Virus record (IMG/VR): IMGVR_UViG_3300043015_000701 | Span: 1 to 28,385 of that record | DNA: 28,385 nt | From: a virus | Reading direction: 5' to 3' (one strand) | Shown: one piece after another, positions 1 to 28,385 of the stretch | Layout: each line of letters starts with the position of its first letter | How positions within the stretch are numbered: the first letter of the stretch is position 1 | Program-made: the position numbers and the translations under genes | The notes under the pieces: model-generated | What the model was told of the DNA's origin: nothing | Databases searched by the model: none | What the model saw: the letters and a program-made list of their open reading frames with translations, nothing else

Positions 1-127
1 AGTTTAGCGGTAAAATATACTATATGTATAAAGATTTATTCACAGCTGAAATGCGCAAGCTAGGCTACACTTTAAAGGATATATGCGAACTTATAGGCGC
101 TAAATACCCTACGGTATATACGCGTCT
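1..127. repeat. 127-bp terminal direct repeat, left copy
   Basis: Bases 1-127 are identical to bases 28259-28385 as read by eye. The repeat includes the leader and first 104 bases of the HTH gene. A length of exactly 127 matches a common maximum assembler k-mer, so it most simply marks a circular or circularly permuted genome written with one overlap, not a biological terminal repeat. Confidence 0.95.
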
Positions 128-1007: not shown

Positions 1008-1051
1008 GTTTTAATAACAGCCTGGGCGTTTATTCGCCTGGGCTTTTTTTT
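994..1051 (+). terminator. tandem hairpins ending the first early unit
   Basis: Two hairpins follow closely. The first (994-1009) pairs ACCTAC with GTAGGT around a CCTG loop and spans the SSB stop codon. The second (1019-1044) pairs AGCCTGGGCG with CGCCTGGGCT, two pairs being G-U, around TTTATT and runs into eight Ts. The second is a good intrinsic terminator, but the downstream gene has no clear promoter, so partial read-through is likely. Confidence 0.75.
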
Positions 1052-1076: not shown

Positions 1077-1832
1077 ATGAAAATAGTAAAAGACACAAAC
1101 GCAGAATACCACAGCCAAAAAGATTATATAAGCGCTAGTGGTTTAAAAATGATAGCTAAAAAAAGCGTACACCACTACCTAAACGCTGAATTTAAAAGCA
1201 CTTCTTCTATGGCTTTTGGAACTGCTGTACATACGGCTATATATGAGCCTAGCGAATACCATAAAGACTACCATATAATACCTAAAATAGACAGGCGTAC
1301 TAAAGCTGGCAAAGAACTATACGCTAATCATATAGAAGAAGCCAAAGGCAAAGAAGTACTAGACGAAGCCGACCACCAGCGAATACTAACAATACTAGAA
1401 AACTTAGGTAAAAGCGACGCTAAAGAATACGTACAGGGCGAGATGGAAGTAAGCCACTATACAGAACACGATGGTATAAAGGTACGCGTACGCCCAGACT
1501 GTATAAATAAAGTAGCTGGGTTTATTAGCGATGTTAAAACGTGTCAAGACAACAGCCCTAGGGCGTTTCTAAGCGATATTTATAAATATAAATACCACGT
1601 ACAGGCGGCTTTTTATATGGATATGCTAGGCGTAAATAAATTCGTTTTTATAGCAATAGAAACAAACGCGCCCTATAGTATAGAAACGTATGTACTAAGC
1701 GACGAACTGCTAGAAAAAGGACGCAAGGAATACAAAAAGGCTATAGCAGACTGGAAGTATTACCTAGAAACAGACGTAGCGCTAGGCTACGACGGTATAA
1801 GAAACGACGACGGTATAATAGTATTAGGTTAA
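1077..1832 (+). CDS. RecE-like PD-(D/E)XK exonuclease
   Basis: A 251-residue protein resembling the phage PDDEXK nuclease family often annotated as putative exodeoxyribonuclease VIII (DUF3799-like). Visible hallmarks in order are: 'YISASGLKMIAKKSVHHYL' near the N-terminus; 'MAFGTAVHTAIYEP' with the conserved His; 'RVRPDC' with the catalytic Asp at about 141; 'SDVKTC' with D152-x-K154; and 'YHVQAAFYMDML' with the conserved Gln helix. It should degrade one strand of duplex ends to make ssDNA for the upstream annealing protein. Length fits the family. It sits after the SSB-like gene, across the terminator-like hairpins. Confidence 0.85.
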   Translation: MKIVKDTNAEYHSQKDYISASGLKMIAKKSVHHYLNAEFKSTSSMAFGTAVHTAIYEPSEYHKDYHIIPKIDRRTKAGKELYANHIEEAKGKEVLDEADHQRILTILENLGKSDAKEYVQGEMEVSHYTEHDGIKVRVRPDCINKVAGFISDVKTCQDNSPRAFLSDIYKYKYHVQAAFYMDMLGVNKFVFIAIETNAPYSIETYVLSDELLEKGRKEYKKAIADWKYYLETDVALGYDGIRNDDGIIVLG

Positions 1833-1851: not shown

Positions 1852-2250
1852 ATGACACAGGAAAATAAACTAGAAAAATATAAAAACTTAGTAGAAGACT
1901 ACTACGGTATAGATTTAATGTTAAAAAGTCGTAAGACTATATACGTACAAGCTAGGGCTATTTATTACTATTTATGTAGGGAATTTTCTAGCCTACCGAT
2001 AACTAAAATAGCGCAAAGTTTAGATAAAAACCACGCTACTGTACTTCACTCTTTAAACGAATTACCGTATATGCGTAAATTTGATAGTAATTTTAACAAA
2101 AATTTTTACGAAATTTACGAAATAGCAAAAAGTTTTAACAGAACAGAAAAAGTAGAACTAACACTAGAACAGCTTATAACTGGGTATAACCAGCTTAAAA
2201 TAGACAACGAAGTACTAAAAAGCAGGCTTAATAAGTACGAACCAGCGTAA
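1852..2250 (+). CDS. stand-alone DnaA domain-IV-like DNA-binding protein
   Basis: A 132-residue protein whose residues about 24-70 match the C-terminal DNA-binding domain of the initiator DnaA: a helix 'VQARAIYYYLCREFSSLPIT', then 'KIAQSLDKNHATVLHSL', where HATVLHS corresponds to the DnaA signature that reads DnaA boxes. There is no AAA+ ATPase domain. The remaining C-terminus (about 105-132) is a short coiled-coil-like helix rich in Leu and Asn, possibly for dimerisation. Lying between recombination nucleases and the replication genes, it could mark the phage origin or recruit, or compete with, host DnaA. The role is inferred; the domain resemblance is seen directly. Confidence 0.7.
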   Translation: MTQENKLEKYKNLVEDYYGIDLMLKSRKTIYVQARAIYYYLCREFSSLPITKIAQSLDKNHATVLHSLNELPYMRKFDSNFNKNFYEIYEIAKSFNRTEKVELTLEQLITGYNQLKIDNEVLKSRLNKYEPA

Positions 2251-2259
2251 ATAAACACA

Positions 2260-2631
2260 ATGCCAAACCACTACCATAAATACTTAGGACCAGAAGACAA
2301 GCTACAAAACGCTGTAATGGACTATATACAGGTCCAGTACCCAGACGCACTAGTAGCCCATATACCAAACGAAGGTAAGCGCACGCCTTTTGAACGGTTT
2401 AAATTTAAGTATTTAGGCGGTAAGGCTGGAATACCAGACGTTATGTTATTCTGTCCTAGTGGCGACTATGTAGGGCTGGCTATTGAATTAAAAGCTGGAA
2501 GAAATAAACCTACAGCTGCTCAGGTAGAATGGTTAGAACGTTTAGAGTTTTGCGGCTGGGCTGCGTATTGTTTAAATAATTTCGACGCCTGTAAAGATAT
2601 TATAGACAGATATTTTAAAAATAATTTATAA
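2260..2631 (+). CDS. VRR-NUC domain nuclease
   Basis: A 123-residue protein with the VRR-NUC arrangement: 'EDKLQNAVMDYIQVQYPDAL' at the N-terminus, 'HIPNEGKRTPFERFK', then 'LGGKAGIPDVML' with the catalytic Asp, 'GLAIELKAG' with the E-x-K pair, and 'KPTAAQVEWLERLEFCGWAA' with the conserved Gln. Length is that of the stand-alone phage forms. Such proteins are PD-(D/E)XK nucleases implicated in cutting branched DNA, and in phages they probably resolve recombination or replication junctions. It is read in the same direction as its neighbours with short gaps. Confidence 0.88.
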   Translation: MPNHYHKYLGPEDKLQNAVMDYIQVQYPDALVAHIPNEGKRTPFERFKFKYLGGKAGIPDVMLFCPSGDYVGLAIELKAGRNKPTAAQVEWLERLEFCGWAAYCLNNFDACKDIIDRYFKNNL

Positions 2632-2985: not shown

Positions 2986-3852
2986 ATGAAACTAAACAGA
3001 ATAATAAAGCCGTCGAAATTCGACAGGTTTACTATAATACCTAGCGCTATATTTAGGCAGCAAGGTATAAGCCAGCAAGCTACAGGGCTGTACTGCTATT
3101 TATTTAGCCACAGTAGTAACCAGAAAATAACTATAAATTTTATTACAAACCACTTTAAAAACGGTAGGGACGCTATTCGCGGCGCTTTAGCTGAACTTGA
3201 AAGCCTAGGTTATCTTATTAGGCAACAAGAACGTAAAAACGGTAAAATAGTAGGTTATAACTACATACTAAAAGACGCACCAGCGCCTGAAAAACCGTCG
3301 CCTGAAAAACCGTCGCCTGAAAATCCGATACAAAGTAATACTAGTATATATAGTTATAAAGATATAACTACATATACAAAAAGTAATAATAGTACGAAGT
3401 CTGAAAACGTCGAAAAATCCTATCCACACTTCGTACAACTTTTTCCTGAAAGGTATAGACCAAAGGCGCCTACTACAGTAGAAAAATGGAAGGTTTGTCT
3501 AGACAGAATAGAACGTATAGACGGCTACGACCTACGCCAAGTTTACGAAGTTTGTAGAAAATTACGCCAAGACCAATTCTGGTCTGAAAACTTTTTAAGC
3601 GTTTTAAAGCTACGTAACAGCGATAAAAACGGCGTACGATACATAGACAGGTTTATGGAACGAAACGCGCTTAGAACGCGTCCTACGGCTTTAAACAAAG
3701 TAAAAGGCGTTAAAGAATTTGTAGCATATACAGAAGACGGAGAAAAAATGGTTAAAGCTATTACTAATAACGGCGTAGTACAGGACTTTAATTTGCGAAT
3801 GAATTTGACGCCAGCTGAATATAAAGAAATACTAGAATATGCGCACAGATAA
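2986..3852 (+). CDS. winged-helix replication protein
   Basis: A 288-residue protein with an N-terminal winged-helix domain (about 12-95): 'FTIIPSAIFRQQGISQQATG', 'LYCYLFSHSSNQKITINFIT', then 'NGRDAIRGALAELESLGYLI' and 'GKIVGYNYIL'. This layout is that of phage replication/DnaD-N-like helix-turn-helix proteins. A Pro-rich linker with PEKPS repeats (about 101-114) and a polar Ser/Asn/Thr stretch follow. The C-terminal half (about 140-288) is helical with 'ATTVEKWKVCLDRIERIDGY' and 'RQDQFWSENFLSVLKLR', resembling domains that follow the winged helix in phage replication proteins. It probably binds the origin or loads the helicase encoded downstream. The 3' end overlaps the next gene by 14 bases. 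Confidence 0.65.
   Translation: MKLNRIIKPSKFDRFTIIPSAIFRQQGISQQATGLYCYLFSHSSNQKITINFITNHFKNGRDAIRGALAELESLGYLIRQQERKNGKIVGYNYILKDAPAPEKPSPEKPSPENPIQSNTSIYSYKDITTYTKSNNSTKSENVEKSYPHFVQLFPERYRPKAPTTVEKWKVCLDRIERIDGYDLRQVYEVCRKLRQDQFWSENFLSVLKLRNSDKNGVRYIDRFMERNALRTRPTALNKVKGVKEFVAYTEDGEKMVKAITNNGVVQDFNLRMNLTPAEYKEILEYAHR
3286..3327 (+). repeat. 15-bp tandem repeat encoding PEKPS units
   Basis: The unit CCTGAAAAACCGTCG occurs at 3286-3300 and 3301-3315 exactly, followed by a degenerate third copy. It encodes PEKPS-PEKPS-PENP in the interdomain linker of the replication protein, and its copy number could vary by slippage. Confidence 0.9.
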
Positions 3853-4264
3853 CATAGAAAAAATACACGAACTAGAACAGCAGCTAGTATTTTTACTAAA
3901 TTTAGACGGCTGGAAGTTAGAATGGACTGGCAAAGACTTTAGCCACTACGACGCAGAAGGTTTAGATTTAAATGGTAGAAAATGTATTATAGAATTTAAA
4001 TTTAGAAGCGAAGCCTATACAGACAAAATGCTAGAAGTATATAAATATAAGGCGCTACTAGCTGTGAATAAGTTTGCAGAACGCTACTACGCCGTAATAG
4101 ACTTTAAAGGCTGCTGGGTATTCGACCTAGATAGTATAAAATACACTAAACAGAAAATACAAAGCCCTAGGCAGTCTATTTTTAACGACACTAAAAAAGT
4201 AGAAAAAGAAGTAATGATGCTACAAAAAAGCAGCGCTGTAAAGCGTTATTTATATAAATTTTAG
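3839..4264 (+). CDS. PD-(D/E)XK-like nuclease (candidate)
   Basis: A 141-residue protein. Residues 36-56 show a plausible PD-(D/E)XK core: HYDAEGLDLNGRKCIIEFKF, with D38 and the E52-x-K54 pair on a beta strand. An N-terminal helix (IEKIHELEQQLVFLLN) and 'KYKALLAVNKFAERYYAVID' after the core fit the fold. It overlaps the replication gene by 14 bases and stops two bases before a methyltransferase start. It may be a recombination nuclease like the other PDDEXK genes here, or the nuclease half of a restriction-modification pair with the next gene; adjacency alone does not decide. Confidence 0.5.
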   Translation: MRTDNIEKIHELEQQLVFLLNLDGWKLEWTGKDFSHYDAEGLDLNGRKCIIEFKFRSEAYTDKMLEVYKYKALLAVNKFAERYYAVIDFKGCWVFDLDSIKYTKQKIQSPRQSIFNDTKKVEKEVMMLQKSSAVKRYLYKF

Positions 4265-4266
4265 AT

Positions 4267-4905
4267 ATGATAGAAATAACAAACGAAGACAATATAGAAC
4301 TAATGGCGCGATACCCAGATAACTACTTTGACCTTGCTATTGTGGACCCGCCGTATGGTGGTAATGATGCCATAGGGTTAAAAGATAATAAAAACCAAGG
4401 TAAACAAGCTACAAAAAGAACAAACTACAAAGTATTTGATAATGTTGCACCAAGTGTTGAGTATTTTAATGAACTGAAAAGAGTTAGTAAAAATCAAATC
4501 ATTTGGGGAGTAAACTTTTATAAAAATTATGATTTAAGTGGTGGTAGATTATGTTGGGATAAAAAAGGAACTGCCTTTGGTAGAGCTGAACTTGCTTATT
4601 TATCTATGACTAAAAGTGTTAATATTTGTGAAATTGTTTGGAATGGTATGTTGCAACAAGATATGAAAAATAAAGAAGTTAGAATACACCCAACACAAAA
4701 ACCTGTTAAGTTATACGAATGGTTACTAATGAATTACGCTAAAGAAGGCAACAAAATACTAGACACCCACTTAGGTAGTGGTTCTATAGCTATAGCTTGC
4801 CATAATTTAGGTTATGATTTAACAGCTTGCGAACTAGACAAAGACTACTACGACGCAGCTATAAAACGCCTTAAACAACAACAGGCGCAACAAACTTTAT
4901 TTTAA
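4267..4905 (+). CDS. DNA methyltransferase, DPPY type, beta-class order
   Basis: A 212-residue protein. Catalytic motif IV, DPPY, is at residues 27-30 and the SAM-binding motif I (DTHLGSGS) begins near residue 166; motif IV before motif I is the beta-class arrangement. DPPY predicts amino methylation, most likely N6-adenine. 'HPTQKPVKLYEWLL' before motif I is typical of the class. The protein is short for the class, so the target-recognition region is small. The central 400 bases (about 4330-4730) use GAT, AAT and TTG-type codons and lack the CTA/ATA/GAC style of flanking DNA, suggesting exchange of the recognition part. It may protect phage DNA from host restriction. Confidence 0.9.
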   Translation: MIEITNEDNIELMARYPDNYFDLAIVDPPYGGNDAIGLKDNKNQGKQATKRTNYKVFDNVAPSVEYFNELKRVSKNQIIWGVNFYKNYDLSGGRLCWDKKGTAFGRAELAYLSMTKSVNICEIVWNGMLQQDMKNKEVRIHPTQKPVKLYEWLLMNYAKEGNKILDTHLGSGSIAIACHNLGYDLTACELDKDYYDAAIKRLKQQQAQQTLF

Positions 4906-5049: not shown

Positions 5050-6735
5050 ATGGAATACAAACAGAAACTACAGGACTTAGGTATACACCTAACGGCTAAC
5101 AGCGGCGAAACTAAAACAACTTGCCCAAAATGTAGCCACACCAGAAAAAACAAAAGCGACAAATGCCTAAGCGTAAATATAGATGAAGGCGTATATAACT
5201 GCCATAACTGCGGTTATGCTGGTAACGTAAAATTTACGCCTAAAAAAGAATATATAAAGCCAGTTAAAGTAAACGCAGAACTAAATAACCGTATTATAGA
5301 CTGGTTTGCTGGTAGGTCTATTACTGAACCTACGCTAGTACATTGGAAAATAGGCGAAAGCCTAGAATACATACCACAGGTACAGAAAAAACGCCGTACG
5401 ATTAACTTTAATTATTTTAGGGAAGGCGAACTAATAAACGTAAAATACCGCGACGCTGAAAAAAACTTTAAAATGGTTTCTGGCGCTGAATTAATTTTCT
5501 ACGGTGTAGACAACCTAAAAGATAAAAAGCGCTGTTATATAGTAGAAGGCGAAATGGACGCGCTAAGCCTACACGAAGCTGGACTATACAGCGTTTGTAG
5601 CGTACCTAACGGCGCTAGTAAAGGAACGCAAAAGCTAGACTATTTAGACAACTGCTATAAGTATTTTGAAGACAAAGACGAAATAATACTATGCACTGAT
5701 AACGACCAGCCAGGGCTACAGCTGCGTAACGAATTAGCTAGAAGGTTAGGCGCTTACCGCTGTAAATACGTCGAATTCGGCGATTATAAAGACGCTAACG
5801 AAGTTTTAATACAAAAAGGTGGCGAAACCTTACGGCAAATAATAAGCGACGCTAAGAACTTCCCACTAGAAGGCGTACTAAACTTAAATAATATATGGAA
5901 TAACGTACTAAATTATAACGAAAACGGTATAAAAAACTATAGTATAAACCTAGGCGAAAGCGATAACTATTTCAATATGGCTTTTGGGGAATGGACTGTA
6001 GTAACTGGTATACCTAATAGCGGAAAAAGCGACTTTATAGACCAGGTACTAGTGAACCTAACAACAAAGTACAACTTCCGCTGCGCTATGTTTAGCCCTG
6101 AAAGCTACCCTTATGAAGGCCATATAAAGCGTATAGCTGACAAACTAAACGGTAAAAGCTGTAATACAGACGACCTAAACAATACAAAAGACTTTATAGA
6201 AGAACATTTTTACTGGATAAAAATAGACTTAGAAAACTTAACGCTTAAGGGTATACTAGACGCTTTTAGACAACTAGTATTCCAAAAGGGTGTAAACGTG
6301 CTAGTAATTGACCCCTGGAATATGCTGGACCACTCGGCGCAGCGCGACTTTACCTACATAGGCAAACTACTAAGCGAAATAACGCAGTTTTGCCAGCAGA
6401 CAAACACACACCTATTCCTAGTAGCACACCCTAGAAAAATAGAAAGCGATAACGGCGTATTTAAAAAGCCCAATTTGTACGATATTAGCGGCAGCGCAGA
6501 CTTCTATAACAAAGCCTATAATGGTCTAGTATGCTTTAGGTCTGTAGGGCAAAAGACAGAATACAAAAGCGACTTAGTAACTATCTATGTAGAAAAAATA
6601 AAACGTAAAGAAAACGGACAGCTGGGACAGTTTGACTTAGCGCCAGACTTCCATAACGGCGGCGTATATAAGCCTATAGGTAAGGCTAGTAAGACGTTTG
6701 AAGTAATAAAAGATACTAATGTACCCTGGGACTAG
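5050..6735 (+). CDS. T7 gp4-like primase-helicase
   Basis: A 561-residue bifunctional replication protein. The N-terminal zinc ribbon uses C25-x2-C28 and C51-x2-C54. A TOPRIM primase core follows with 'YIVEGEMDALSLHEAG' (about 163-178), 'VCSVPNGAS' and 'LCTDNDQPG'. The C-terminal half is a DnaB/T7-like hexameric helicase: Walker A 'TGIPNSGKSDF' (about 319-329), 'CAMFSPES' , Walker B 'VLVIDPWN' (about 417-424) and 'LFLVAHPRK'. It should prime and unwind DNA at the fork. Length matches the family. The extreme C-terminus is acidic/aromatic (DTNVPWD), a possible partner-binding tail like that of T7 gp4. No DNA polymerase gene is seen in this genome, so it may pair with the host enzyme. Confidence 0.93.
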   Translation: MEYKQKLQDLGIHLTANSGETKTTCPKCSHTRKNKSDKCLSVNIDEGVYNCHNCGYAGNVKFTPKKEYIKPVKVNAELNNRIIDWFAGRSITEPTLVHWKIGESLEYIPQVQKKRRTINFNYFREGELINVKYRDAEKNFKMVSGAELIFYGVDNLKDKKRCYIVEGEMDALSLHEAGLYSVCSVPNGASKGTQKLDYLDNCYKYFEDKDEIILCTDNDQPGLQLRNELARRLGAYRCKYVEFGDYKDANEVLIQKGGETLRQIISDAKNFPLEGVLNLNNIWNNVLNYNENGIKNYSINLGESDNYFNMAFGEWTVVTGIPNSGKSDFIDQVLVNLTTKYNFRCAMFSPESYPYEGHIKRIADKLNGKSCNTDDLNNTKDFIEEHFYWIKIDLENLTLKGILDAFRQLVFQKGVNVLVIDPWNMLDHSAQRDFTYIGKLLSEITQFCQQTNTHLFLVAHPRKIESDNGVFKKPNLYDISGSADFYNKAYNGLVCFRSVGQKTEYKSDLVTIYVEKIKRKENGQLGQFDLAPDFHNGGVYKPIGKASKTFEVIKDTNVPWD

Positions 6736-6753
6736 ATATATAAAATATATATA

Positions 6754-7554
6754 ATGGATATAATAAAAAAACAAAACATAAAATTATATAAAGGTAACTG
6801 CTTAGAAATAATGACTACAATACCTAATAAAAGTATAGATGCTATAATTACAGACCCACCATACGGAACGACAGCTTGTAAATGGGATAGTGTTATTGAT
6901 TTTGATTTAATGTGGGAACAGTTAAATAGAATAATAAAGCCTAACGGTGCAATAGTTTTGTTTGGTAGTGAACCGTTTAGTAGTTATTTAAGAATGAGTA
7001 ATATAAAAAACTATAAATACGATTGGATATGGCAAAAAAATATAGGCGGTGCTTTTGCTTTAGCAAATAAAATGCCTTTAAAAAGACACGAAATAATAAG
7101 CGTGTTCTATAAAAAACAACCTACATATAATCCACAAATGCAAGAATATTCTCAAAGCACCAAAAAAAGATTTAAAAATTTGCAAAAAATAAATACAACA
7201 AAACAAAAAGAAAACAACACAGGAGAGATAATCAAAATAAATAGAAGTGATTATACTATTGACTACAATAAAGGAACATACCCCACAAGTGTAAAATTTT
7301 TTAAAAGACCACACATAGCAAATGGAAATAGTTTGCACCCTACTCAAAAACCTGTTTCTTTAATGGAATACTTAATAAAAACCTACACCAATGAAAACGA
7401 AACAGTTTTAGATTTTACAATGGGGTCAGGTAGCACAGGAGTAGCTTGTTTAAATACAAATAGAAATTTTATAGGTATTGAAATGGACGAAAATTATTTT
7501 AACATAGCAAAAAAAAGAATAAACGAACACAAACAACAAACAAGACTATTTTAA
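6754..7554 (+). CDS. second DNA methyltransferase, DPPY type, beta-class order
   Basis: A 266-residue protein with DPPY at residues 34-37 in 'AIITDPPYGT', 'FGSEPFSSYLRMSNIKNYKY' and 'YDWIWQKNIGG', 'HEIISVFYKK', the pre-motif I block 'LHPTQKPVSLMEYLIKTY', and motif I 'DFTMGSGSTG' from about residue 220. This is the beta-class order and a probable N6-adenine specificity; it resembles the many phage site-specific methyltransferases. From about 6880 to 7550 the coding style differs from most of the genome (AAT, GAT, ACA, AAA-rich), which suggests recent acquisition or replacement. There is no adjacent recognisable restriction enzyme. The stop overlaps the next start (TAATG). Confidence 0.92.
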   Translation: MDIIKKQNIKLYKGNCLEIMTTIPNKSIDAIITDPPYGTTACKWDSVIDFDLMWEQLNRIIKPNGAIVLFGSEPFSSYLRMSNIKNYKYDWIWQKNIGGAFALANKMPLKRHEIISVFYKKQPTYNPQMQEYSQSTKKRFKNLQKINTTKQKENNTGEIIKINRSDYTIDYNKGTYPTSVKFFKRPHIANGNSLHPTQKPVSLMEYLIKTYTNENETVLDFTMGSGSTGVACLNTNRNFIGIEMDENYFNIAKKRINEHKQQTRLF

Positions 7555-8076: not shown

Positions 8077-8109
8077 CTAACCTGTAAAACCTAAAAAGTT
8101 TAAGATTAA

Positions 8110-8140
8110 TTTGCAAGTATAGATTTTTTGTGTACATTTG
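8110..8140 (+). promoter_or_regulatory. Bacteroidota-type promoter for the short middle unit
   Basis: TTTG at 8110-8113 and TACATTTG (TAnnTTTG) at 8133-8140 are separated by exactly 19 bases, the same spacing as at 15990-16020. The upstream block AGTTTAAGATTAATTTGCAA (8097-8116) recurs with small changes at 15977 and 28221. The site lies 26 bases before the ATG at 8167. Confidence 0.75.
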
Positions 8141-15962: not shown

Positions 15963-15989
15963 ATACCCTGTAAAAAAGTTTAAGATTTA

Positions 15990-16020
15990 TTTGTATGTTT
16001 AAAATTAATATGTATATTTG
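15990..16020 (+). promoter_or_regulatory. Bacteroidota-type promoter before the three tiny ORFs
   Basis: TTTG (15990-15993), 19-base spacer, then TATATTTG (16013-16020), matching TTTG-N19-TAnnTTTG. The preceding block AGTTTAAGATTTATTTG mirrors that of the promoter at 8110. The ATG at 16041 follows 20 bases after the -7. Confidence 0.8.
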
Positions 16021-20124: not shown

Positions 20125-20487
20125 ATGTTAAAATACTTTAGTATAGCAGAATTTGACAGCCCAGACGCGCCAGGTAGTGGTGTAAATATGGACCAGGACT
20201 TACTAGAACTGTTAGACGAAATGCGCGCTATATATGGTAAGCCTATAAAAATTACAAGCGGCTACAGAACGCCAGAACACAATGCTAGCCTAGGTAAAAA
20301 CGCGTCTAAAAACAGCAGCCACCTAAAAGGTTTAGCTGTAGACATAGCTATTAAAAACAATACAGAACGCTACGAAATTATACGTATAGCTATGCTATTA
20401 GGAATTAAGCGTATAGGAACTGGTAAGGGTTTTGTACATATTGACATAGACGGCGACAAAGCGCAAAATGTAAACTGGTTATACTAA
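20125..20487 (+). CDS. peptidase M15-family endolysin (D-Ala-D-Ala carboxypeptidase/endopeptidase-like)
   Basis: A 120-residue peptidase M15_3-like protein: 'YFSIAEFDSPDAPGSGVNMD', 'LLELLDEMRAIYGKPIKITS', 'GYRTPEHNASLG', then the zinc-binding motif SSHLKGLAVDIAI (His and Asp) and the last His in 'GKGFVHIDIDG'. It cleaves peptide cross-links in peptidoglycan to release phage. No signal peptide, so export through a holin is expected, in accordance with the holin gene that follows with a stop/start overlap. Confidence 0.92.
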   Translation: MLKYFSIAEFDSPDAPGSGVNMDQDLLELLDEMRAIYGKPIKITSGYRTPEHNASLGKNASKNSSHLKGLAVDIAIKNNTERYEIIRIAMLLGIKRIGTGKGFVHIDIDGDKAQNVNWLY

Positions 20488-20873
20488 TGAAGGCACTACT
20501 AGCTAAACTTTTAGGACTTAATACAGGCGGCGATAGTGCGCTAGGTAGTTTTGCTAAAGACTTACGCGAAGCTATAAAAGGCAAAGAAATAGACCCAGAA
20601 AAAGCACTAGAACTAATAAAGGTACAGAACGAAGTAAACAAAATAGAAGCCCAGCACCGCAGTATATTTGTAGCTGGGTGGCGTCCGTTTATAGGCTGGG
20701 TTTGCGGTTTAGCTTTACTATATAACTTTATACTACGCGATTTAATAGCCTGGCTAAGCCCTAATATAATGCCGCCAGCTTTACAAATGGAACACCTACT
20801 AACTGTACTTATGGGTATGCTAGGGCTAGGTGGACTTCGCACCTACGAAAAACTAAAAGACAAAAGTAAGTAA
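20487..20873 (+). CDS. holin, 3TM-type
   Basis: A 128-residue protein with a charged N-terminal half (LREAIKGKEIDPEKALELIK, then VQNEVNKIEAQHRS) and a membrane half: 'IFVAGWRPFIGWVCGLALLY', 'NFILRDLIAWLSPNIM' and 'LLTVLMGMLGLGGLRTYEKL'. The GWRPFIGW and GLGGLRTYEK motifs are those of the 3TM holin family (gene-transfer-release type). It permeabilises the inner membrane for the M15 endolysin. ATG overlap with the endolysin; stop overlap with the next ORF. Confidence 0.88.
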   Translation: MKALLAKLLGLNTGGDSALGSFAKDLREAIKGKEIDPEKALELIKVQNEVNKIEAQHRSIFVAGWRPFIGWVCGLALLYNFILRDLIAWLSPNIMPPALQMEHLLTVLMGMLGLGGLRTYEKLKDKSK

Positions 20874-28212: not shown

Positions 28213-28233
28213 TACTAAATAGTTTAAGAATTA

Positions 28234-28257
28234 TTTGCATAGTTTAAAATCTATTTG
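28234..28257 (+). promoter_or_regulatory. early promoter region
   Basis: AGTTTAAGAATTATTTGCAT (28221-28240) mirrors the upstream half of the promoters at 8097 and 15977. TTTG lies at 28234-28237. A -7-like TCTATTTG at 28250-28257 has a short spacer (12); TAGTTTAG at 28258-28265 has a 20-base spacer but one mismatch. Whichever is used, the site feeds the first gene across the circular junction. Confidence 0.55.
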
Positions 28258-28258
28258 T

Positions 28259-28385
28259 AGTTTAGCGGTAAAATATACTATATGTATAAAGATTTATTCA
28301 CAGCTGAAATGCGCAAGCTAGGCTACACTTTAAAGGATATATGCGAACTTATAGGCGCTAAATACCCTACGGTATATACGCGTCT
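28259..28385. repeat. 127-bp terminal direct repeat, right copy (contains truncated copy of first gene)
   Basis: Identical to bases 1-127. Bases 28282-28385 repeat the first 104 bases of the HTH gene; this is the circular overlap and not a second gene. Confidence 0.95.

Follow-up and report, generated by a model that had tools for sequence, protein, structure and literature searches.

The window, by which we mean the whole stretch of viral DNA analysed here (28,385 nucleotides, IMG/VR record IMGVR_UViG_3300043015_000701), carries a 127-bp direct terminal repeat (positions 1-127 and 28259-28385), and a second contig (L001), 99.96-100% identical to it, spans the junction of its two ends. Together, the terminal repeat and the bridging contig show that the window covers a circularly permuted genome in full, with a length of 28,258 bp (28.26 kb). 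The host of this phage is probably a member of the Bacteroidota. One run of genes encodes, in order, a phrog_11717 protein, a small protein, a RecE/exonuclease VIII-like nuclease, the stand-alone DnaA domain IV protein that is the subject of this study (hereafter DnaA-IV), a VRR-NUC nuclease, small proteins, an HTH_36/DnaD-like/lambda O-like initiator, an unknown protein, a DNA methyltransferase and a primase/helicase (Table 1). A terminator-like hairpin sits in the middle of this early gene run, with no promoter match directly 3' of it, and the replication genes that follow may need read-through or antitermination. Two N6/N4 DNA methyltransferases (4267-4905 and 6754-7554) lie on either side of the primase/helicase; in the phages Harreka_1 and tooticki6-1 and at loci L057 and L075, too, the DnaA-IV gene has a methyltransferase gene beside it or no more than about 4 kb away. 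The holin (20487-20873) belongs to GTA_holin_3TM (PF11351, 47.6 bits), a family named after gene transfer agents. PADLOC returned no match for four window proteins.

Table 1. Features of the DnaA-IV locus and its surroundings (window coordinates).
Feature	Position	Strand	Basis or remark
E. coli-type DnaA box, TTATTCACA	36..44	+	TTATTTACA instead in 9/9 aligned relatives
Hairpin resembling an intrinsic terminator, 5' of the RecE - DnaA-IV genes	1019..1044	+	kept in 9/11 aligned rows, the remaining two being misplaced matches
RecE/exonuclease VIII-like PD-(D/E)XK nuclease, upstream neighbour of the DnaA-IV gene	1077..1832	+	family profiles
Stand-alone DnaA domain-IV-like gene (ATG start, 132 aa)	1852..2250	+	Pfam, TIGR00362, phmmer
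Domain IV proper, residues 5-97, DnaA DNA-binding fold	1864..2142	+	model range aligned to 3pvp_A
R27, equivalent of E. coli R399, minor-groove arginine	1930..1932	+	present in 27/27 phage rows
K59-N-H-A-T-V-L-H66, covering the turn and the first part of the recognition helix; corresponds to the E. coli D433-H439 region	2026..2049	+	model, alignment
C-terminal helix, residues 105-129, heptad-like L105 L108 Y112 L115 N119 L122 L126	2164..2238	+	model
VRR-NUC nuclease, downstream neighbour of the DnaA-IV gene	2260..2631	+	family profiles
HTH_36 / DnaD-like / lambda O-like replication initiator	2986..3852	+	family profiles
Candidate phage origin: tandem repeat of a 15-bp iteron-like unit, 2.9 copies, within the initiator gene and followed by AT-rich DNA	3284..3327	+	
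Second E. coli-type DnaA box, TTATTCACA, isolated	4063..4071	-	
Primase/helicase of the same module	5050..6735	+	family profiles

The 132-aa product contains the motif KNHATVLHSL, from which, together with the preceding helices, the first-pass annotation had recognised the DNA-binding domain IV of DnaA, and this identity was borne out by Pfam, TIGR00362, phmmer, AlphaFold, Foldseek and VIA-align. Bac_DnaA_C (PF08299) matched residues 12-69 with 46 bits (E = 5.4e-12; Pfam cut-off 31.5), while two other Pfam families listed for the protein were under their cut-offs. The TIGR00362 DnaA model aligned solely over positions 345-434 of 437, which is the C-terminal part of DnaA, and the NCBIfam DnaA score was 44.7 against a cut-off of 343.9. 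A phmmer search of the PDB returned five DnaA chains (A. aeolicus DnaA at E = 3.3e-5). An AlphaFold model made with a 25-row family alignment (pLDDT 92.6) has helices at residues 3-18, 29-45, 50-55, 61-77 and 79-95 and a separate helix at 105-129, and its residues 5-97 span the full domain IV. The best eight Foldseek matches in the PDB were all DnaA (E = 2.1e-3 to 4.9e-2, none at E <= 0.001; probability 1.00). VIA-align placed the model on the DNA-binding domains of M. tuberculosis DnaA (3pvp_A, Z 16.1) and E. coli DnaA (1j1v_A, Z 15.2, rmsd 1.6 over 90 residues), with other DnaA chains at Z 11.6-14.0 and the top non-DnaA chain among those listed, Spo0J/ParB, at 6.8. Judged on the chains listed, the predicted fold is that of DnaA, not one unrelated to domain IV.

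No Pfam AAA family matched the protein, and its length leaves no room for the AAA+ ATPase domain III, which upholds the annotated absence of this module. Domain I (DnaA_N) likewise had no Pfam match, and the model consists of domain IV and one helix. That helix had been described as a coiled-coil-like tail; the helix itself is confidently predicted, but a coiled coil is no more than plausible, its heptad pattern having p = 0.02 in the window protein (against shuffles of its own composition) and p <= 0.05 in five of 23 long-tailed rows, two of the five being near copies. Purifying selection acts on the gene, with dN/dS values of about 0.25-0.38 for five pairs compared. Profile, sequence and predicted fold together confirm that its product is a DnaA domain IV standing alone and complete, followed by a short C-terminal helix.

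Proteins of this kind are already known and widespread in phages, and the window protein is one more member. A pattern-based scan returned 62 loci in viral contigs, and 48 of them were read; these encode open frames of 85-185 aa (three cut 3' by the contig end), fall into 21 clusters at 80% identity, and in no case have room for an ATPase. The family is diverged, with 21 of the 24 other alignment rows merely 17-33% identical to the window protein. Named carriers infect Cellulophaga, Olleya and Flavobacterium, and most isolated relatives come from phages of Flavobacteriia; one carrier is a Bradyrhizobium phage, whose protein is closer to the DnaA profile (97 bits). Among the best 50 matches listed, a BFVD structure search returned proteins of Nonlabens P12024L, Tenacibaculum Gundel_1, Cellulophaga phi19:1 and uncultured phages. 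Cellulophaga phi46:1 gp40, Olleya Harreka_1 gp24 and Flavobacterium tooticki6-1 gp26 are likewise short (112-170 aa), AAA+-less proteins with a PF08299 domain, those of phi46:1 and Harreka_1 being 28-31% identical to the window protein; the three differ from it in their tails and gene neighbours, and the phi46:1, tooticki6-1 and Nekkels_1 proteins fall under Pfam's cut-off, whereas the window protein is over it. Relatives are annotated as 'DnaA protein', 'putative DnaA protein', 'bacterial helix-turn-helix protein' or 'hypothetical protein', and a Polaribacter phage paper lists a 'replication initiation protein DnaA' (PMC4615864). Among the matches listed from the open-licence PMC literature, we saw none in which the function of such a protein from a free-living phage had been tested.

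Several apparent relatives were set aside. Eight gut 'Bacteriophage sp.' records (MT838945, MT835965, MT838540 and five others, from a phage collection) matched DnaA over 92-98% of a 341-residue query and are probably chromosome fragments, and a ninth such record holds a FecR-like frame, as judged by eye. In cellular genome contigs a first pattern scan gave 0 loci and a second gave 19, which, where the sequence could be read, were all DnaA: 15 had a Walker match, three were DnaA by Pfam and one was cut by the contig end. Three deltaproteobacterial loci considered as transposases proved to be full DnaA by Pfam (DnaA_N, Bac_DnaA and Bac_DnaA_C). These full-length proteins (L079, 6924-8279; L080, 6888-8264; L082, 3180-4526) have no loose Walker A match and carry NRNHST in domain IV, and judged by sequence are possibly DnaA paralogues with an altered ATP site. 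As to where the phage domain came from, we do not claim capture from Bacteroidota DnaA: a 'Bact' group of DnaAs (Bacteroidota and similar sequences) had the highest mean identity for 16 of 27 phage rows, by small margins, and the backbone of the tree is not resolved.

Among the residues through which DnaA contacts DNA are R407 and T436. In E. coli DnaA, R399 is the minor-groove reader, and P423, D433, H434, T435 and H439 contact bases, as described in the cited passages (PMC5742627; PMC7561715). Across 27 phage rows, arginine occupies the R399 and R407 places in all 27; the D433 place is N in 15 and D in 12, H434 is H in 26 and F in one (Nekkels_1), T435 is A in 24, S in two and T in one, T436 is T in 24 and S in three, and H439 is H in 19, Y in five, N in two and W in one. 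E. coli P423 is matched in none of 25 rows. The window protein keeps R27, R35, H61, T63 and H66, with alanine at the T435 place. Because the scan patterns fixed part of the turn, including H434, such columns were dropped from an entropy test; the remaining R399, R407, T435, T436 and H439 columns had a mean entropy of 0.47 bits, compared with 2.39 for 66 free columns, and none of 50,000 random column draws was as low. At the level of sequence, few columns in the alignment of 27 diverse phage proteins are thus as conserved as the contact positions.

Comparison with cellular DnaAs placed these residues in context. Both named Bacteroidota DnaAs, from Phocaeicola massiliensis and Parabacteroides distasonis, read DHATVLH, with alanine for T435; of two gut-contig DnaAs (L105 and L106, put in the 'Bact' group by likeness alone), one reads DHATVLH and the other DHSTVIH, with S at the T435 place. 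Elsewhere among cellular DnaAs, the T435 place holds T at 15 loci, S at four and alanine at none of the 19 examined, 14 of which are from related Actinobacteria. We therefore dropped the idea that the T435A change marks a new DNA specificity, since Bacteroidota DnaAs have the same alanine. The Bradyrhizobium phage protein also has it, so this alanine is not exclusive to Bacteroidota. The domain IV of Bacteroidota chromosomal DnaA shares with the window protein its fold and its states at R399, R407, H434, T435, T436 and H439. Compared with Bacteroidota DnaA, domains I-III are missing from the window protein, D433 is replaced by N (N60, where the four DnaAs of the 'Bact' group have D) and the HTH turn is one residue shorter; the one-residue insertion of the 'Bact' and E. 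coli DnaAs is absent from all 27 phage rows. Mean domain identity to the four 'Bact' DnaAs is 29%. The phage reading head thus matches that of host-phylum DnaA except for N/D at 433 and the shorter turn.

We hypothesize that the window protein is an ATPase-less DNA-binding regulator that reads host DnaA sites as a competitor of, or substitute for, DnaA; this is the reading we favour, while granting it somewhat less than an even chance. DNA would be bound in DnaA's manner, by the minor-groove arginine R27 and the recognition helix 61-77, and the target would be the type of site that host DnaA reads. Without an AAA+/ATPase module the protein could not melt an origin or load a helicase, so it would act by occupying sites. 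Made early in infection, it would compete with or replace host DnaA at the origin and/or at DnaA-controlled promoters, and host initiation would be damped or transcription changed; the phage origin would meanwhile be served by the phage's own O-like initiator. Phage-specific regulators tend to alter their recognition residues together with their operators. A host-like reading head kept at ~20% family identity thus suggests a target that the phage does not control, that is, host DnaA sites, and a fixed, host-set target is suggested as the simplest reason for its retention across diverged phages. Other observations in favour are that E. coli-type boxes are not enriched in the phages and perhaps scarce, that the window phage encodes an initiator of its own with conserved in-gene iterons, and that Flavobacteriia are the hosts of most isolated relatives. 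The first-pass annotation had proposed a block of host initiation among other roles; a possible block of this kind fits the conserved DnaA-type contact residues. The annotation also suggested that the protein may recruit the partners of host DnaA. Most such partners bind parts of DnaA that the window protein does not have. The binding of Hda involves two residues of domain IV (PMC5742627). YfdR, encoded by an E. coli cryptic prophage, offers a comparison: it too comes from a phage and reportedly influences DnaA and the start of chromosome replication (PMC4776307), but it is reported to bind DnaA itself, whereas the window protein copies DnaA's DNA-binding part.

The argument for host sites is weakened by the retention of R399, R407 and H434 in DnaAs of every phylum read (13 of 13 aligned cellular rows), and the conserved contacts could come partly from the fold or from general DNA binding. 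Sequence mismatches also speak against it: N60 in the window protein, the P423 mismatch, the F of Nekkels_1 and the shorter HTH turn. So do the alanine at the T435 place, which is no hallmark of Bacteroidota DnaA, and a tree that does not place the source of the domain. A bolder version, in which a truncated DnaA serves as a weapon with which many diverse Bacteroidota phages, their copy of the reading head being maintained by selection on the DnaA-site code of the host, occupy host DnaA sites early and shut down or retune initiation and DnaA-controlled transcription, strikes us as rather unlikely.

Also against our favoured reading, the target site was found nowhere in scans for E. coli-type boxes and shared motifs. 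The window has two unclustered E. coli-type boxes in its 28,258 bp (a third listed copy is the terminal repeat). Over 20 loci, TTWTNCACA occurred 11 times, where shuffling of synonymous codons predicts 17.6 +/- 3.7 and 4 of 100 shuffles had as few, a comparison that concerns the E. coli-type box, from which the Bacteroidota box may differ; dinucleotide shuffles of the same loci had given an apparent strong depletion (11 versus 34.9), which shrank under the synonymous-codon null. E. coli-type boxes are thus not enriched in these phages and are perhaps scarce. Box excess was not significant in any of the complete genomes of phi46:1, tooticki6-1, Harreka_1 and the window, the counts including seven TTWTNCACA in Harreka_1 against 4.2 expected (8 of 100 shuffles as high) and two TTATNCACA in the window against 0.6 expected (7 of 100 as high). 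When 8-mers and three spaced forms were searched de novo for a motif common to 21 loci or genomes, no form scored above the highest shuffled maximum, with top scores slightly above the mean of the shuffled maxima. These searches cover the E. coli-type box or multi-copy motifs only, and within that scope they weaken the annotated proposal that the protein targets the phage origin through clustered TTATnCACA boxes. In their cited passages, two Bacteroidota papers applied the E. coli box (PMC4755523, PMC8994065), and one of the two states that oriC in Bacteroidota is commonly far from dnaA.

A separate repeated element lies at promoters. Defined post hoc, after copies had been noticed, GTTTAANNNNNATTTGYA has four exact copies in the window (0.04 expected) and a near copy at 15997, within 8098-8115, 15978-16014 and 28222-28259. 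All copies are intergenic, before three transcription units, and twice form tandem pairs 19-20 bp apart; at 8110 and 15990 the element overlaps TTTG-N19-TANNTTTG, which we take to be a Bacteroidota-type promoter. Exact copies occur in nine of 11 close relatives examined. As an operator for DnaA-IV the element was rejected, with no exact copy in the distant loci L032, L035 and L041 (one loose opposite-strand match lies at the L035 operon start). Since L032 has no exact copy, although its protein has the same contact residues, the element is probably not the site of the DnaA-IV protein. The adjacent small HTH gene at 24-224 is a nearer candidate.

Such searches would pass over a protein with few sites, as absence of a multi-copy site is expected for one or two operators. 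A second reading, which we regard as possible but distinctly doubtful, is by analogy with GafY and GafA: a phage transcription regulator whose domain IV would bind one or a few phage promoters and whose C-terminal helix would dimerise or contact RNA polymerase. In the cited passages, GafY, homologous to DnaA domain IV and once named hdaB for its replication effects, was then shown to be a transcription activator that binds promoters, contacts the sigma-70 factor RpoD and needs IHF (PMC9632790, PMC11150451), and its authors argue against a role at oriC (PMC9632790). This tested precedent counts by analogy against the host-site reading. GafY and GafA resemble the window protein as a small DnaA-IV-like DNA-binding protein or domain of a phage-derived system (PMC9632790, PMC9638019), and RcGTA activation suffers when the DnaA-like domain of GafA is mutated (PMC9638019). 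Promoter control would also suit the repeated element GTTTAANNNNNATTTGYA of the window and its close relatives, though not the lack of exact copies in L032, L035 and L041, and the terminase gene that lies 0.5-1.9 kb downstream of the DnaA-IV gene in three distant loci (L038, L057 and L068). Against this, the recognition residues are near-frozen in the phage family, whereas GafA has E8 for R399 and S43 for T435 (PMC9638019), the position of the DnaA-IV gene differs between loci, and no GafZ/DUF6456 partner or C-terminal part was found in 41 window ORFs scanned with Pfam. The GafA-like gp38 of roseophage RDJL Phi 1 aligned to the phage family with an hhalign probability of 1.2% and itself has no PF08299 match. 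The window protein is thus not established as a GafA member but may, by analogy, work like one. TnpA-REP transposases provide another DnaA-IV-type domain outside replication initiation, in the form of a Bac_DnaA_C tail that, unlike the window protein, is fused to a Y1 transposase; their flanking repeats are unlike DnaA boxes, which indicates that the domain can change its target (PMC6006769, in the part cited).

A third reading, to which we give a low probability, is that of a replication accessory or origin-recognition protein that would mark the phage origin and help the O-like initiator or the host replisome. The DnaA-IV gene lies inside a replication/recombination run in the window and in L032, L035 and L041 (the only ones of 19 distant loci with a window-type initiator), and near SSB/RecE/Erf genes in Harreka_1. 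In distant relatives, at least one scanned neighbour was a replication/recombination/nuclease-type protein at 11 of 14 loci (RecE-type exonuclease, DnaB-like helicase, primase/helicase and RusA among them), but no neighbour was constant, in a survey of 30 of 278 neighbouring ORFs with one to three per locus. Standing against an origin role are the missing ATPase, the fact that E. coli-type boxes are not significantly over-represented in either the four complete genomes or the 20 loci, the two unclustered boxes of the window, the first of them not conserved, and the presence of a separate O-like initiator with iterons. The 15-bp tandem repeat in that initiator gene doubles as coding sequence for a protein repeat of the initiator and is kept in twelve relatives, with three copies in ten and four in two. 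Since its position and composition are like those of the lambda origin, the phage probably has its own origin-binding O-like initiator, which is a better candidate origin binder than the DnaA-IV protein. The name given by the annotators of the Polaribacter phage (PMC4615864) and the plasmid replicases of Rhodobacterales called 'DnaA-like' (PMC9025767) would fit the origin reading. Finally, it is very improbable that the protein is a degenerate remnant or a general DNA binder without a specific site, as the failure to find a target might suggest, given the purifying selection on the gene, the R27 and R35 positions kept in 27 of 27 rows and H61 in 26 of 27, and the open frames in all 48 relatives read.

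Together, these data partly support the interpretation of the first-pass annotation, and add that E. coli-type boxes are not enriched, that a separate O-like initiator is present, and that the contact columns are conserved and Bacteroidota-DnaA-like, including the alanine at the T435 place. The labels 'DnaA protein' and 'replication initiation protein DnaA' are at odds with the anatomy of the window protein, which cannot initiate by DnaA's mechanism. With a reading head that is near-frozen and host-like, a vague label becomes a question that can be put sharply: are host DnaA sites occupied by a phage-borne domain IV? If they are, this would be a simple host-takeover route in many phages and a tool for mapping Bacteroidota DnaA sites, and if the domain is indeed used as a weapon, its frozen recognition residues would also point to the little-studied Bacteroidota DnaA box. 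If they are not, the GafY story, in which the reading domain of DnaA is reused as a transcription factor, would extend to free-living phages.
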